Assembly: GCF_030450055.1 (NCBI RefSeq)
Contig: NZ_CP118480.1
Span: 1,701,415 to 1,765,414, forward strand
Reading direction: 5' to 3'
Source: Gallaecimonas kandeliae
GTDB lineage: Bacteria; Pseudomonadota; Gammaproteobacteria; Enterobacterales; Gallaecimonadaceae
DNA length: 64,000 nt
Position numbers and translations under genes: made by a program. The notes beneath the pieces are model-generated. The model ran no database searches. It saw nothing but the letters and a program-made list of their open reading frames with translations, and was not told the origin of the DNA. Shown in pieces: positions 3,213-14,800 of the stretch. Every line of letters starts with the position of its first letter. Within the stretch, counting starts at the first letter, position 1.

Positions 3213-3383
3213 CTAGTCGATTGACGAGATATCATGGTCACTTGTATGAACATACATAGAGAAAGTCTCAGAACAAATCCAAGACACATTTTTATAAAAT
3301 GTATGTATAAGAGTGTCTAATGGGGAGTATAAAAGTTCATGAGTCTTTTTATCATTTGGGAAAATGATTTGTATAAAATTCAT
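3213..3383 (-). CDS. Small ORF (56 aa) following the 131-aa cassette gene
   Basis: The ATG at 3383 follows AAGGAG with a 7-nt spacing and lies 18 nt beyond the stop of the 131-aa gene, so the two are probably co-transcribed. The predicted peptide (starting MNFIQIIFPNDKK, ending DHDISSID) is polar, has no membrane segment, and is rich in Asn, Asp, Ser and Ile, matching the AT-rich surroundings. Its function is unknown. The translation signal is good, but there is no independent support from homology. Confidence 0.45.
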   Translation of the reverse strand: MNFIQIIFPNDKKTHELLYSPLDTLIHTFYKNVSWICSETFSMYVHTSDHDISSID

Positions 3384-3401: not shown

Positions 3402-3797
3402 TTATCTACGTTTAAATATTTTCTTTAAATCTAGGAGGATTTGTAAAACATGAGGAATATTTTGTGTTATTTCAGCTTCGCCATCAGAATTATAGTAGCT
3501 ATAACTGCTGTATGCTTCTTTGTATTTTGTCTTACAGCTTTCATAGCTTCCTTGGTGGCGCAATGGAATATAATCACAGACAGCCTCCAATTCTGGGATA
3601 AGCCTGTCACTAATACTGTTTTTGTTGTCAGAGAGGTGGCGTATTTCGGTATTGAGCAACTGTCGTATTTGTTCAGTCGCATCGTTGAACTCTTTCCGTT
3701 TATCTCTGAAAAGATGGAAGTAGTTGCCGACAATGCAACCAATTATGAAAATAACCACTTTTTGTACGAATGGATCGTGGAAAATGGCTGGGATCAA
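3402..3797 (-). CDS. Membrane-anchored orphan protein with TTG start (cassette gene)
   Basis: The protein has 131 residues. The start is a TTG at 3797 with a near-perfect AAGGAGGT site 6 nt upstream (3804-3811). One membrane span (about residues 11-29, VQKVVIFIIGCIVGNYF) is followed by a charged cytosolic domain (FRDKRKEFNDATEQIRQLL) with heptad-like helices and a basic end (KKIFKRR). No family is recognised. It lies immediately downstream, in transcription order, of the attC-like site at 3863-3967, as expected for a gene cassette. A 159-aa frame on the other strand overlaps it; I prefer this one because of its better ribosome site and more protein-like composition. Confidence 0.6.
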   Translation of the reverse strand: MIPAIFHDPFVQKVVIFIIGCIVGNYFHLFRDKRKEFNDATEQIRQLLNTEIRHLSDNKNSISDRLIPELEAVCDYIPLRHQGSYESCKTKYKEAYSSYSYYNSDGEAEITQNIPHVLQILLDLKKIFKRR

Positions 3798-3862: not shown

Positions 3863-3967
3863 ACATAACGCCGCCAGCAGCGGCAAAAAATTGATGGCAC
3901 TTTTATTGCGCCGTTTGCAAGAAAAGTAACAGCAAGTTTTTGTCCGATTTGACTGGCCTTGTTAGAG
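3863..3967 (-). other. attC-like recombination site (site B)
   Basis: On the minus strand the 105-nt segment begins with CTCTAAC (R''-like) and ends with GTTATGT (R'-like). Just inside, GCCAG pairs with CTGGC, giving the imperfect palindrome expected of an integron attC. The stop codon of the upstream lipoprotein gene lies within CTCTAAC, a typical cassette arrangement. On the plus strand its 3867-side arm (TAACGCCGCCAGCAGCGGC) closely resembles the matching arm of site A (TAACGCCAACAGCAGCGGC), which argues that both are members of one family. Confidence 0.55.
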
Positions 3968-4375
3968 GCCACCCAAGACTTGCTTGTCACGCATACCTGC
4001 TGATTTAAACCAGCGCTTACCATCTGATAGCTGAAGGGTATTGCTATTTAGGCTAATGACTGTCCAACTGTCTTTTGCATGAGGACACCATTGTTCATTG
4101 CAATCGCGTGTCAAGGTAGTTCCATCAAAATACCAAGTTCCTGCAAATGAATACGACTGCGCCTCGCAAAAATTGCCACTGCATCCTCTGTCAATGACCG
4201 TACATTTAAATATGCCATCAGATTTATATAGACAATCACTTAGCTGATAATCAGTTCCATTTAAGGACTGCCCAGAGTGCCAATACCCATAGATATCAGT
4301 GGTAGTTGGGCTAACCACTTTGTTGGCACATGAAACTAGTGGGATGATCAATAAAGGAATAATGGTTAGTCTCAT
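3962..4375 (-). CDS. Predicted lipoprotein (cassette gene)
   Basis: The start at ATG 4375 follows GAGGGC and produces a lipoprotein signal: MRLTIIPLLIIPLVSC with lipobox LVSC and lipidated Cys16. The 137-residue product has several mature cysteines (LSDCLYK, FKCTVIDRGCSGNFC, RDCNEQWC) consistent with disulfides and an exported location. The segment IYGYWHSG...GTWYFDG...LQLSDGKRWFK resembles small lipocalin-like beta barrels, but this is only a pattern impression. It is flanked on both sides by attC-like palindromes (sites A and B) and its stop overlaps site B, so I read it as one integron-type cassette. Confidence 0.65.
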   Translation of the reverse strand: MRLTIIPLLIIPLVSCANKVVSPTTTDIYGYWHSGQSLNGTDYQLSDCLYKSDGIFKCTVIDRGCSGNFCEAQSYSFAGTWYFDGTTLTRDCNEQWCPHAKDSWTVISLNSNTLQLSDGKRWFKSAGMRDKQVLGGL

Positions 4376-4380
4376 ACGCC

Positions 4381-4458
4381 CTCTAACGCCAACAGCAGCG
4401 GCCGACTGAAAGGAGGTCCAGTGCCCGCAGGGCACGATGCTGCCTGTTTTTGTTATGC
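4381..4458 (-). other. attC-like recombination site (site A)
   Basis: On the minus strand this 78-nt site starts with GCATAAC and ends with GTTAGAG, matching the inverted RYYYAAC/GTTRRRY core sites of attC. CAGGCAGC near the start pairs with GCTGCTG near the end if one G is bulged, which is the extrahelical G expected in the L'' box. The centre holds a perfect GTGCCC/GGGCAC hairpin. It lies between the stop of the 140-aa membrane protein gene and the start of the lipoprotein gene. Confidence 0.6.
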
Positions 4459-4461
4459 ATT

Positions 4462-4884
4462 TTATTTGCCCCATGGCAAGAACACGCCAACGAGTGCCAA
4501 ACCATAAAATATTGGTATTAAAATCATTGTCAATTTTAACAACCCTTTTTGAGCCTCTAGAAAAGTAGTACCTCGCACCCCTTTAGCTTCAGTGTCCAAA
4601 GCCTTTCTTGCTGGATGCACCAAAAAAACAATATAGTTACCAATTAACATTGATAGCGGTATAAGCCCTAAAAATGGGGCTATAGCAGAAAGAATTACAC
4701 CTATTCCATTGGGAGTGTCTTGAAAGTTTTGCATAGAATAGATTTTTGAATGAATACTTTCTAGTGCAATAAACGTTACCCACCACAATAATAATAAAGT
4801 TGTCGAAATACTAGGAATAAGCAAAAGATTCCATTTGCTTTTTCTTCGTGTCGCTCTTCTTCTTGCTTCTTCTATGTAGTTCAT
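4462..4884 (-). CDS. Three-TM membrane protein (cassette gene)
   Basis: The 140-residue protein has a very basic N-terminus (EEARRRATRRKSK) followed by three hydrophobic stretches at about residues 20-42 (LLLIPSISTTLLLLWWVTFIA), 60-85 and 115-135. No family is recognised. The ATG at 4884 has no clear ribosome site; the GTTATGC end of an attC-like site lies 11-17 nt upstream, a common layout in cassettes. The stop is followed at once by attC-like site A. Composition is AT-rich compared with core genes. Confidence 0.6.
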   Translation of the reverse strand: MNYIEEARRRATRRKSKWNLLLIPSISTTLLLLWWVTFIALESIHSKIYSMQNFQDTPNGIGVILSAIAPFLGLIPLSMLIGNYIVFLVHPARKALDTEAKGVRGTTFLEAQKGLLKLTMILIPIFYGLALVGVFLPWGK

Positions 4885-4894
4885 ACTTGATTAT

Positions 4895-5034
4895 GCATAA
4901 CAGCGTAATAGTGCGCATGCGCGCTTTGTCTCATTAGACCAGTGCCTATAAGGTTGTACAAGGTGCTGATCCCCCTATGCATTTCACCAGTGTCATAATA
5001 TGTCCAAGGATGAAAACGAGCATGCGCGTTATCA
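4895..5034 (-). other. Possible third attC-like site (site C)
   Basis: Minus-strand TGATAAC (5028-5034) and GTTATGC (4895-4901) delimit 140 nt, near the upper length limit for attC. The internal arms share complementary GCGCATGC/GCATGCGC separated by unpaired bases. This is weaker than sites A and B: the left core is degenerate and no recognisable gene precedes it. Confidence 0.3.
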
Positions 5035-5249
5035 TTCCAGCCTTGGCTCGACTATCTACTCATCGGATCACGATAAAACCCACCCCATCAACCACTTACT
5101 ACTGGTTGGAGGTGTGAAAACGCGCATTAGCCGTGGGGATAGTGCGCATTTGTCAGCGTCCAATACCGTTCATACTGTATGTCCATCCAAAACACTGAAC
5201 AGCGTCACCAACCCTTTCACAACCAGCCGAACCTGTGGATAAGGCCCCG

Positions 5250-5467
5250 GAGCCCCTTTTAAGTGGAGCGCCTTACCGCCGGGAGTGAAAGGCCAGCCGA
5301 GACAGGACGTCAAGGCAGGCGAATACGTGCCGGGAGCGCGTATGAGCCGGTGGCCTCCGAGCGACCAGAGGTAAGGACATCGCGTAACGTCAGGGGCGGT
5401 GCTTTTGGATACTTTGTGCGAAAACAAAGTATCCCGCCCGCCGGTGCGGGAACCGGCATATAAAAGC
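5250..5467 (+). repeat. Dispersed hairpin-tailed repeat, copy R1
   Basis: This shares words such as CAGCCGAGACAGG, TACGTG, GCGTATGAGCCGGTG and GACCAGAG, in the same order, with copies at 48850-49038 (minus) and 51235-51482. It ends in a perfect 11-bp inverted repeat, GGATACTTTGT/ACAAAGTATCC (5407-5434), then CCGGCATATAAA. No convincing reading frame runs through it. The remaining gene-free stretch from 5035 to 5249 and from 5468 to 5700 shows no gene I can support. Confidence 0.7.
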
Positions 5468-5700
5468 CCGTGCCCGCAGGTTCCTTCAAGACACGCTACC
5501 GCCCTTGAGTCACAGCTCCCAATTGCTGATCGCTTCCCTATCATCAGTCTTGCTTTTGAGACGCCATCATATGGTCCCCCTTGGGAAACCATCATCCTCA
5601 AGCTCCAACATAACCCCCTAATCCAAAAGGGTAAACCCGAAAAGAGTAGGGGGCCCAGCCGCCCCCAGGCCTTACAACCATAGGGTGCGGCGCTACGCCG

Positions 5701-9802: not shown

Positions 9803-11788
9803 ATGAGTTTTCGTCAGCGCGTGACCCTGCTTATCCTGTCCATAGGCCTGGTACCGGCCCTGCTGGTCGCCCTCATCCTCTGTCCCCTTGCCTCCAGCGC
9901 CCTCAAGGGCCAGATCTTCGACCAGCTCACCTCTATCCGTGCCCTCAAGCAAAGTGAACTGAAGACACTGCTGGACGCCAAGCAGCACCAACTGCTGACG
10001 CTGCGCCAGGTGGTGGCGAGCCTGCCCAGCAACGGCGACTGGCAGCAGCACCAGGCGTTGTTCGAACACTTCATCAAGGAAAACCGCTTCTATGACCTCT
10101 TCGTCATAGATCCAGAGGGGATAGTGCAGTACAGCGTCATGAAAGAGCCGGACTTCCACACCGACCTGCAGCATGGCCCCTTCAGGGACAGCGGCCTGGC
10201 CCGGCTCTATCACCAGGTGGAGGACGGCGCCAACTACGCCCTGGTCGACTTCAGCCCCTATGCCCCCAGCAAGGGGGAGCCGGCGGCCTTCCTCGGCGTG
10301 CCCATGGCCTGGCAGGGCAAGCAGATGGTGCTGGGGCTGCAGCTGGACCCCACCGAGATCAACGAGCTGATGCAGCTGCGCGCCGGCATGGGCCGCACCG
10401 GCGAGTCCTACCTGGTGGGCCAGGATCTGCGGATGCGTTCCGATTCCTTCCTGGCCCCCAAGAGCCATTCCCTGAGCGCCTCTTTTGCCGGCAGCGTCGC
10501 CGAAAATGGCGTCGACACCCGCGCCAGCCGTGAGGCTCTGGCAGGGAAAAGCGGCACCGAGATCCTCACCGACTACAACGGCCACCAGGTGCTGTCGTCC
10601 TTCGCCCCCGTGGATGTCGCCGGGATGCGCTGGGCCCTCATCGCCGAGATGGACCTCAGCGAGGCCATGGCGCCGGTGCTGAAGATGCGCTTTGCGGCCC
10701 TGATGGTGCTGCTGCCGGTATTGCTGCTGGTGGTGCTGGGGGTGGCCCTGGTCGGCCGCTGGGTGCTGAGGCCCCTTGGCAACGAGCCCGAGGTGATGCA
10801 GCGCCTGGCCAACCGGATCGCCAGCGGCGACCTCAGCGAACCCCTGGCCGCCAACGGCCAGGGCGCCAATGTCCACAACGGCCTGGCCCAGCTGCAGACC
10901 ATGTTCATCGAACTGCTGGGGCGCATCCGCCATGCCAGCAACCAGCTCAGCCAGGAATCGGGCACCACCACCCAGATAGCCAACGAGACCTCCAGCTCCA
11001 TCGTCACCCAGTCCCAGCAGGTGGAACTGTTGGCGGCCGCCATCGAGGAGATGAGCCTGGCGGCCAACGAGATCAGCAACAACGCCGTTCATGCCAGCCA
11101 GCGTTCGGAGCTGATGACGGAGCTGTTGACCGGCGTCGGCGATCAGGTGGGCAGCACCCGCCGCCAGGTGGGCATGACGGTCGAGCACTTCGACGCCATA
11201 GGCCGGGACATAGCGCTGCTGGACCAGGAAAGCCAGCAGATCCGCCAGGTGGTGGTGGTGATCGCCAATATCGCCGAGCAGACCAACCTGCTGGCCCTCA
11301 ACGCCGCCATAGAGGCGGCCAGGGCAGGGGAACACGGCCGTGGCTTTGCCATAGTGGCCGACGAGGTGCGCAAGCTGGCCACCCGGGTCCAGGAGGCCAC
11401 GGCCGATATCGAGGGCCTGATCGGCAGCGTGTCAGGCAAGACCTCGGCCCTGACTGGCGCCATGCAGCAATGCAACGGCCTGGCCGAGCAGAGCCTGGTC
11501 GATGTCGACGCCATGGCCCAGAGCCTGCCGCAGATCTTCGAGGCCTTGAAGGCGATGGGGGACGCCGTCAGCCAGACGGCCACGGCATCGGAGCAGCAAT
11601 CCCAGGTATCCAAGGAACTGGCCCAAAACGTCAGCAGTATCAGCGTCTCGGCCCAGCAGAACTCCCAGGCCGCCAGCCAGGTCTCGGAAGCCAGCCGACA
11701 CCTGGCCCGGCTGTCCGAGGAGCTTGCCGCCCAGCTTGGCCGTTTCCGGTTGCCGGCCCAGGCCTGGACTAGGCTTAAAAACCGCTGA
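9803..11788 (+). CDS. Methyl-accepting chemotaxis protein
   Basis: A 661-residue chemoreceptor. The start at 9803 follows AAGGAGG; an earlier in-frame ATG at 9776 lacks a site. TM1 spans about residues 7-29, the periplasmic sensor about 30-295 has a Cache-like pattern ([51 protein letters not shown]), TM2 lies at about 297-319, then HAMP. The signalling hairpin near residues 488-525 carries the conserved [20 protein letters not shown] and [14 protein letters not shown]. The C-terminus lacks a NWETF-type CheR pentapeptide. The Cache sensor suggests small-molecule ligands such as organic acids or amino acids, but the ligand is not inferable. Confidence 0.93.
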
Positions 11789-11816
11789 TAACGTATTGGC
11801 AAAACAGCAAATAAGA

Positions 11817-11841
11817 CCCCGGCTCGGCCGGGGTTTTCTTT
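11817..11841 (+). terminator. Rho-independent terminator after the chemoreceptor gene
   Basis: A CCCCGGC/GCCGGGG stem with a 3-nt loop is followed by TTTTCTTT, just before the ydiJ-like gene. Confidence 0.85.
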
Positions 11842-11878
11842 GATATACTGGCCGAAAACCCGTTCTGGCCCGGCCTTC

Positions 11879-14800
11879 ATGATCCCAAGACTCGACACAG
11901 CACCGCAGCTCAGCGCTCCCTACCTGGCCTTCCTCGATGCCCTCAAGGCCGCCGGCTTTCGCGGCGATATCGAGACCCGCTACAGCGAAAGGCTGAGTGT
12001 CGCCACCGACAACTCCGTCTACCAGCTGCTGCCCCAGGCCCTGGTGCTGCCGAAAGACCATGAAGACGTGCTGCTGCTGGCCCGGGTCGCCAAGGGCCAC
12101 CCGCAGGTGCAGTTCAGCGCCCGCGGCGGCGGCACCGGCACCAACGGCCAGAGCCTCAACACCGGCCTGGTGGTGGACATGTCCCGCCACATGCGCACCA
12201 TTCTCGAGTTCAACGCCGAAGAGGGCTGGGTGCGGGTCCAGGCCGGGGTCATCAAGGACCAGCTCAACGACTTCCTGCGCCCCCACGGCTTTTTCTTTGC
12301 CCCGGATCTGTCCACCTCCAACCGGGCCACCGTCGGCGGCATGGTCAGCACCGACGCCTCCGGCCAGGGCTCCCTGGTCTACGGCAAGACCTCGGATCAT
12401 GTGTTGGGGTTAAGGGCCGTGCTGGTTGACGGCGAAGAGCTGGAAACGAGAGCGCTGCCCCTGGCCGAGCTGGAAAGGCTGCCGGGCCGGGCAGGGCAGT
12501 TGCACCGGGATATCGCCAAGCGGCTCAAGGACAAGCGTGCGCAGATCCTCGAGACCTTCCCGCGCCTCAACCGCTTCCTGACCGGCTATGACCTCGAACA
12601 CGTCTATGACGAGGCCTTGGAACATTTCGACCTCGGCAGGCTCATCTGCGGCGCCGAAGGCTCCTTGGCCTTCGTCACCGAGGCCAAGCTCCATGTCAAC
12701 CGCATCGAGCCCTTCAAGACCCTCATCAACATCAAGTACGACAGCTTCGAAAAGGCCCTGCGCAACGCCCCTTTCCTAGTGGCGGCCAAGGCCACCTCGG
12801 TGGAGACGGTGGACTCCAAGGTGCTTTCCCTTGCCCGTGAAGACATCATCTGGCACCAGGTGAAGGACCTCATCAGCGAGGTGCCGGGCCACGACATGCA
12901 GGGCCTGAACATCGTCGAATTCAACGACGTGGACGAGGCGGCGCAAAAAGCGAAGGTGCAGAGCCTCTGCCAGCGCCTGGACGAGGCCCTGGGCGGCGAG
13001 AGCGGTATCATCGGCTACCAGCTCACCAGCGATCTCGGCGCCATCAACCGCATCTACGCCATGCGCAAGAAATCGGTGGGACTGCTCGGCAACACCAAGG
13101 GCAGCGCCAAGCCCCAGCCCTTTGCCGAAGACACGGCGGTGCCGCCCCAGAACCTCGCCGACTTCATCCTGGAGTTCCGCGCCCTGCTGGACGCCAAGGG
13201 CCTGCACTACGGCATGTTCGGCCACGTGGACGCCGGCGTGCTGCACGTGCGCCCGGCCCTGGATCTCTGCGATCCCCAGCAGGAACTGCTGCTACGGGAG
13301 ATCTCAGACCAGGTGGTGGCCCTGGTGGCCAAGTACGGCGGCCTGATGTGGGGCGAGCACGGCAAGGGCTTTCGCTCCGAATACGCCCCCACCTTCTTCG
13401 GCGAACTCTGGGACGAGCTGCGCTGGGTCAAGAGCCAGTTCGACCCGGACAACCGCATGAACCCCGGCAAGATCTGCACGCCGCTGGAAGGGGAGCATCG
13501 ATTGGTGTCGGTGGACGGGCCCAAGCGCGGCGCCCTGGACCGGCAGATCCCCGTCCAGGTGCGGGACAGCTTCAGCGGCGCCATGAGCTGCAACGGCAAC
13601 GGCCTCTGTTTCAACTACGACGCCACCAGCCCCATGTGCCCCAGCTATCGGGTCACGGGCGACAGGCGCCACAGCCCCAAAGGCCGCGCCGGCCTGGTGC
13701 GCGAATGGCTGCGCCTCCTGGCCGAAAGTGGCGTGAACCCCGACGCCCTCGAAGCAGGCAACCGCAAGCTGCCCTTCTTCAACCGGCTGCGCAACAGCCT
13801 GGGCAGTGAATACGACTTTAGCCGCGAGGTCAAAGAGGCCATGGACGGTTGCCTGGCCTGCAAGGCCTGCTCCAGCCAGTGCCCCATCAAGGTGGACGTG
13901 CCGAGTTTCAGGGCTCGCTTCATGAACCTCTACCACCAGCGCTACCTGCGGCCTCTCAAAGACCACCTGGTGGCCAATGTGGAGCTAAGCAGCCCGCTGA
14001 TGGCCCGCTGGCCCAAGCTGGTCAACGCCCTGCTGGGCCAAAACTGGTTCCAGGGATTGCTCAAGAAGACAGTCGGCATGGTGGACTCGCCGCTGCTGTC
14101 CGCGCCGACCCTCAAGGACCAGCTGGCCGGCCACGACGCCCTGGACTGGGATCTCGCCAGCCTCGCCAGCCACCCCCAGAAGGACAAGCTGGTGCTGGTG
14201 GTCCAAGACCCTTTCACCAGTTTCTACGACGCCAAGGTGGTGGCCGACCTGGTCCGCCTCATCGAAAAGCTGGGCTTTGTGCCCAAGCTGCTGCCTTTCA
14301 AACCCAACGGCAAGCCCGAGCACGTCAAGGGCTTCCTGGCCCGTTTCAACAAGACAGCCCAGGCGGCGGCGGACTTCCTCAATCCCCTGCATGCCCTGGG
14401 GTTGCCCCTGGTGGGGGTGGATCCGTCCCTGGTGCTTTGCTATCGGGACGAGTACCGCAAGGCGCTTGGCGACAAGCGCGGCGACTTCCAGGTGTTGCTG
14501 GCCCAGGAGTGGCTGGCCAAGCTGCCTGAAGAGGCTTTCGCGGCCCTCCGCCAAGACAGCGCCACTGCAGGCCGGGCCAATGCAGGCAGCGCCACCCTCT
14601 TTGCCCATTGCACCGAAAAGACGGCCGAGCCCACCAGCGAGAAGGCCTGGCAGCAGATCTTCGACAAGGCCGGCCTGAGCCTGTCCGTCGCCAGCGTCGG
14701 CTGTTGCGGCATGGCCGGCACCTACGGCCACGAGGCCGAGCACCAGGAGACCTCCAAGGCCCTCTATGAGCTGTCCTGGCGCGGCGCCGTGGCCAAGGCC

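Follow-up and report, generated by a model that had tools for sequence, protein, structure and literature searches.

Integron arrays led by attI sites and JUMPstart/ops sequences at many loci of Gallaecimonas kandeliae, possibly served by a single integrase

The stretch of 64,000 nucleotides analysed here (the window) holds on its minus strand three small genes set between imperfect palindromes. Is such a block an orphan array, the tail of a chromosomal integron, or an array organized in its own right? In the usual view an integron is one integrase with one adjacent attI, and arrays lacking intI are debris. Published accounts describe one attI per integron (PMC3607928, PMC9024848), and beyond class 1, attI sites are little characterized and are not searched for (PMC9024848). 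We found that the window block is a satellite integron array: it has an attI, two cassettes complete with attC and a third one in truncated form, and lacks an intI of its own.

Anatomy of the window array

We constructed a covariance model from 25 attC sites in other arrays of the genome, with the window excluded. In this training set the R-box core was invariant, and the L''/L' box pairs kept their pairing through double-compensated changes in 9-13 of the 25 sequences per pair. The sole match of the model in the 64-kb window was site A (4381-4458, minus strand; 32.1 bits, E 1.1e-4), which its fold supports as well. Site B (3863-3967, minus strand) escaped detection in one piece, probably owing to its 105-nt length, and without filters each of its halves gave a weak match of its own (11.5 bits, E 0.13, and 8.9 bits, E 0.49). 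Its bottom strand, at -24.7 kcal/mol (z -5.2, none of 200 shuffles as good), takes the standard attC fold, with a 5-bp R stem, 2-nt spacers and an L stem bearing an extrahelical base. Both window cassettes open with the complement of the 5' end of their own attC (GTTATGCAT/ATGCATAAC and GTTAGAGG/CCTCTAAC), a rule that was also read for many cassettes at loci L034 and L006. Because of the model match, the bottom-strand fold and this complementarity, sites A and B are identified as attC sites, one to each cassette. The marks by which an integron array is recognized, namely conserved R boxes, covarying L boxes and a bottom-strand fold, were thus all found, site B entering through its fold and its weak half-matches. 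A simple R/L-box stem score had failed to separate the sites from background, and the covariance model was used instead.

These results bear out the preliminary description, which had called A and B attC-like, had proposed covariance scoring of both, and had considered their common motif hard to attribute to chance. Exact copies of TAACGCC-N2-CAGCAGCGGC stand at 3866 and 4384; when three mismatches are tolerated, the matches number four, against 0.47 expected, a number that none of 100 shuffles reached. The palindromes could have been ordinary terminators or intergenic repeats, and site B does have terminator-like scores. This reading is refuted, and we give it next to no credence: the invariance of the R box, the covariation of the L boxes and the cassette rule all speak against it, as do the clustering of attC model matches in arrays and the ending of shared cassettes at GTT.

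The third palindrome, site C (4895-5034), had been listed as a weaker member of the same set. The sequence exists, but as an attC it was ruled out by its poor fold (z -1.1) and by its identification as an attI. The 160 bp around it occur in seven genome copies, the window's included, at 80-100% identity, and weaker matches lie at 3491.8 kb and beside intI. When the copies were aligned with their flanks, all were common up to ...CTGTTA and diverged abruptly right after GTT. On this alignment, the GTT that ends the common sequence appears to be the integron crossover point and site C the attI of the array, which would make the block neither a bare CALIN nor simply the tail of a chromosomal integron. 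CALIN-like remains correct for A and B, as at least two attC sites with no intI nearby; the tail reading fails, since the array has its own docking site and is one of many attI-headed satellites.

In the direction of its genes (all features are on the minus strand), the array begins with a JUMPstart leader at 5492-5528 (Rfam RF01707, 45.3 bits against a gathering threshold of 35), whose exact ops element, GGCGGTAGCGTG at 5492-5503, is aimed into the array. Between ops and attI lies an intergenic repeat (5262-5482), inside which a terminator scan marked a terminator-like hairpin (5451-5432). The attI-like head, with an upstream remnant of the intI-attI spacer, was delimited at 4898-5189 from its aligned genome copies. 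It includes half of a LexA-like box near 5175-5189; the attI itself, recognized by sequence, spans about 150 bp and ends exactly at the crossover GTT (4901-4899), and related sequence continues upstream.

The three small minus-strand ORFs of the preliminary description are all present. Cassette 1, whose limits were read from GTT to GTT as 4387-4900, carries a 140-aa gene (4462-4884) for a probable membrane protein of unknown family and ends in site A. Cassette 2, delimited in the same way (3869-4386), carries a gene for a putative lipoprotein (3962-4375) with a weak, lipocalin-like match to PF13648 (E 0.036, below the Pfam cut-off) and ends in site B. Directly behind site B, the third gene (3402-3797) starts with TTG after AAGGAGG; the covariance model recognized no attC downstream of it, also with filters off, and it is probably a cassette 3 that has lost its attC. 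Two further AT-rich ORFs without attC (1860-2681 and 3213-3383) lie past it and are possibly a decayed array tail.

attI copies, integrase and cassette sharing

No IntI homology, and no intI remnant, was detected in the 4 kb upstream of the window attI, and the array has no adjacent intI. The earlier statement that intI is absent therefore holds for the 64-kb window and not for the genome: the genome-wide search that had been advised found one integron integrase in the single 3.84-Mb contig (TIGR02249, 397 bits against a cut-off of 265), at about 2036.3-2037.3 kb, about 330 kb from the window array. Its gene is intact, with RKHRHY catalytic residues and an IntI-type insert readable in the sequence, and its locus has cassettes of its own, likewise read from sequence.

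attI-like heads were counted by reading and by pattern searches, for which reversed patterns gave no matches. There are at least 13 in this genome (12 without intI), 16 in G001, 14 in G002, 4 in G003 and 8 in G004, which brings the genus, with its five species, to about 55; satellites share descent, and the copies are therefore not independent events. Of the heads, 33 were aligned. A 14th, degenerate attI lies at about 1436.5 kb of this genome. A 28-mer of the attI core occurs 11 times in G001 and 9 times in G002, with none for the reversed control, and for a second attI type 17 copies were counted in the genus and none in 14 other genomes. Among six G002 satellites and the attI next to intI, roughly the last 36 bp vary hardly at all, and 174 bp of the intI-less satellite L172 match the intI-adjacent attI with 100% identity. 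Several satellites retain the LexA-like box of the intI promoter despite the loss of intI. Some satellites stand at the same position in two species, and part of the set is therefore old. Matches of the attC model are dispersed in all five species, and most satellites examined carry attC sites behind attI, a few having none that the model recognizes.

The integrase itself is not kept throughout the genus. IntI is missing from G001, and in G004 an in-frame stop interrupts intI; the arrays of these two species may therefore be inactive. At L176 a remnant of the IntI N-terminus (31 aa, about 2062-2154, E 0.003) was seen upstream of an otherwise intI-less attI. The other satellites tested showed no intI remnant, except for one marginal match (E 0.065).

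Some structural features of attI were also noted. A long-range hairpin was considered as a defining structure; it is present in some types and too poorly conserved to claim, and its arms look like paired operator-like dyads. Across the genus, palindromic boxes flank the attI core (for example at about 4330-4360 of L159); between types, compensatory changes preserve the dyad. IntI or a regulator may bind at these boxes. At L166 (6495-7488) and L190 (726.6-727.5 kb of G001), attI, cassette, degenerate attC, repeat and attI follow in tandem at a spacing of about 1 kb, a possible route for attI multiplication.

Cassettes with limits at GTT were found at more than one place for other arrays of the genome. 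The intI array and satellite L049 have in common a 751-bp cassette (99.87% identity), the match beginning one base ahead of the GTT of one attC and ending in the GTTA of the next. One first cassette is a tandem duplicate from GTT to GTT (449 bp, 100%), and arrays of different species share cassettes of 347 and 488 bp that are bounded by R boxes. For the window cassettes, we found no second copy or close relative in any collection searched. Neither gene had homologs in plasmids, and that of cassette 1 had none in viral contigs; for that of cassette 2, a search of 296 genomes from the order gave a single weak match (34% identity), with an attC some 1 kb away. The window array is absent from the kefB locus of the sister species, and only a distal flank gene (3-596) is common to the window locus and a G002 satellite.

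JUMPstart/ops leaders and RfaH

The ops element of the window is not an isolated case. With at most one mismatch, ops is present 312 to 2127 bp upstream of 31 of the 33 aligned attI sites, and its orientation is that of the cassettes in every case; all five species are represented. Two G003 attI sites lack it, and in complete integrons it stands beyond intI. The ops rate at random positions of this genome was 0.9%, and most genomes tested from other families had none, two having 1-2 copies. The 12-mer is nearly fixed while its flanks have strongly diverged; its conservation follows in part from choosing sites at one mismatch or fewer, which does not apply to the divergence of the flanks. JUMPstart exceeded the Rfam threshold at 11 attI-bearing loci.

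This genome contains 16 exact ops copies, 12 of which lead pattern-defined attI sites (13 such sites); owing to the common ancestry of the satellites, a binomial P for this coincidence comes out too small. The remaining four are found at the degenerate attI near 1436.5 kb, at a polysaccharide-export operon next to rfaH, at a JUMPstart with an AT-rich gene and in an apparent coding region. At L218 (12229-12266; 3432.2 kb) JUMPstart/ops and the repeat lead an AT-rich gene with no attI or attC visible. The repeat, about 220 bp with a GC-rich hairpin, accompanies nearly every attI, is also found without one, and has 43 full or partial copies in the genome.

RfaH is known to act on polysaccharide, toxin and conjugation operons. 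The genome encodes it (TIGR01955, 163.3 bits against a cut-off of 144.5); the gene was located with an E. coli RfaH query, was confirmed by NCBIfam, and adjoins the ops-led polysaccharide-export operon. Two marks of an RfaH regulon, an upstream ops/JUMPstart in the direction of transcription and an encoded RfaH, were found. No sigma-70 promoter was recognized upstream of the window ops, and the terminator-like hairpin between ops and attI may be one that RfaH is unable to overcome.

One integrase for many docking sites: alternatives and known systems

The simplest account of this anatomy is one IntI, many docking sites and an elongation factor. Working in trans, the single chromosomal IntI would serve many dispersed attI sites. 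RNA polymerase starting upstream of an array would pause at the ops of its JUMPstart/ops leader and recruit RfaH, and with RfaH bound it would then escape premature, Rho-type termination on its way through the attI region and the AT-rich cassettes with their many hairpins. We favour, with some reserve, the reading that one integrase serves the dispersed sites and that the arrays are expressed by RfaH anti-termination. Its fuller form is a polycentric integron, in which one integrase stocks a dozen or more attI sites and RfaH activates the arrays in concert, coupling cassette acquisition to control by anti-termination; for this we regard the case as evenly balanced.

The main rival is that the satellites are relics, that is, former complete integrons that lost intI and now decay unused, with ops merely duplicated along. 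CALINs are usually read as degraded integrons (PMC9024848), and the IntI remnant of L176 stands just where this reading expects it; moreover, insertion sequences break up many arrays, and in G004 and G001 the integrase is broken or gone. On the other hand, the other tested satellites have no such remnant beyond the marginal match, near-identical cassettes are common to the intI array and a satellite, the attI core is invariant in G002, and ops is nearly invariant amid diverged flanks. We consider decay unlikely overall, and a better fit for G001 and G004 than for this genome. The satellites may also be real and active, with ops/JUMPstart a passenger of the intergenic repeat that plays no part in cassette expression. 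The tendency of ops, repeat and attI to travel as one unit, and the many copies of the repeat, agree with this; yet ops is retained in the same direction each time where the flanks have little in common, an exact ops is missing from most copies of the repeat (16 ops against 43 repeat matches), and in complete integrons ops stands beyond intI. We judge this improbable. The insertion of cassettes by IntI at non-specific attG sites, which would yield a classic CALIN, is a known route to dispersed cassettes (cited in PMC12444791) and would fit an array with no adjoining intI. For these arrays it is contradicted by the shared attI heads: in place of varied genomic sites, a conserved attI-like sequence of about 150-300 bp stands at the start of each aligned array. 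We hold it to be very improbable.

The system resembles a sedentary chromosomal integron of the Vibrio or Xanthomonas type in its IntI, its attI with divergent cassettes, its attC arrays of genes of unknown function and the LexA-like box before intI, and differs in having at least 13 attI-headed arrays for one intI. With CALINs it shares attC arrays that lack an adjoining integrase in a genome that encodes intI at another locus; Xanthomonas is such a case, with CALINs at several chromosomal loci (PMC12444791). CALINs are defined by attC only, whereas here an ops leader and a conserved attI come in addition. Such attI sites are not among the targets of IntegronFinder (PMC9024848), and programs seeking only intI and attC would class all these arrays as CALIN. 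In delta-attI-type gene cassettes, too, attI sites can be multi-copy and recombined by IntI1 (PMC12901181), but those lie inside mobile-integron arrays, unlike the attI heads scattered over the chromosome here. The Rfam JUMPstart match with ops and the RfaH equivalog are those of known RfaH/ops operons; what would differ is the target, an integron array. The open-access literature searched, which leaves preprints and most subscription journals outside, contained no account of RfaH at integrons or of dispersed attI-headed arrays. Multiplied and conserved across the genus, the docking site would open many chromosomal positions to one integrase, and RfaH anti-termination is a concrete candidate for the expression of promoterless cassettes far from the cassette promoter.

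Finally, an IS3-family element with the ends TGGACCTCACCCG... and ...CGGGTGAACATCA was found in attC sites at L033 (about 10159-11390), at L050 (about 11443-12706) and at the array end of L051, as well as at the G001 loci L163, L164 and L168. In six cases it is inserted exactly 19 nt past the AAC of the R'' box, and it looks like an attC-targeting insertion sequence outside the IS1111/IS110 group.
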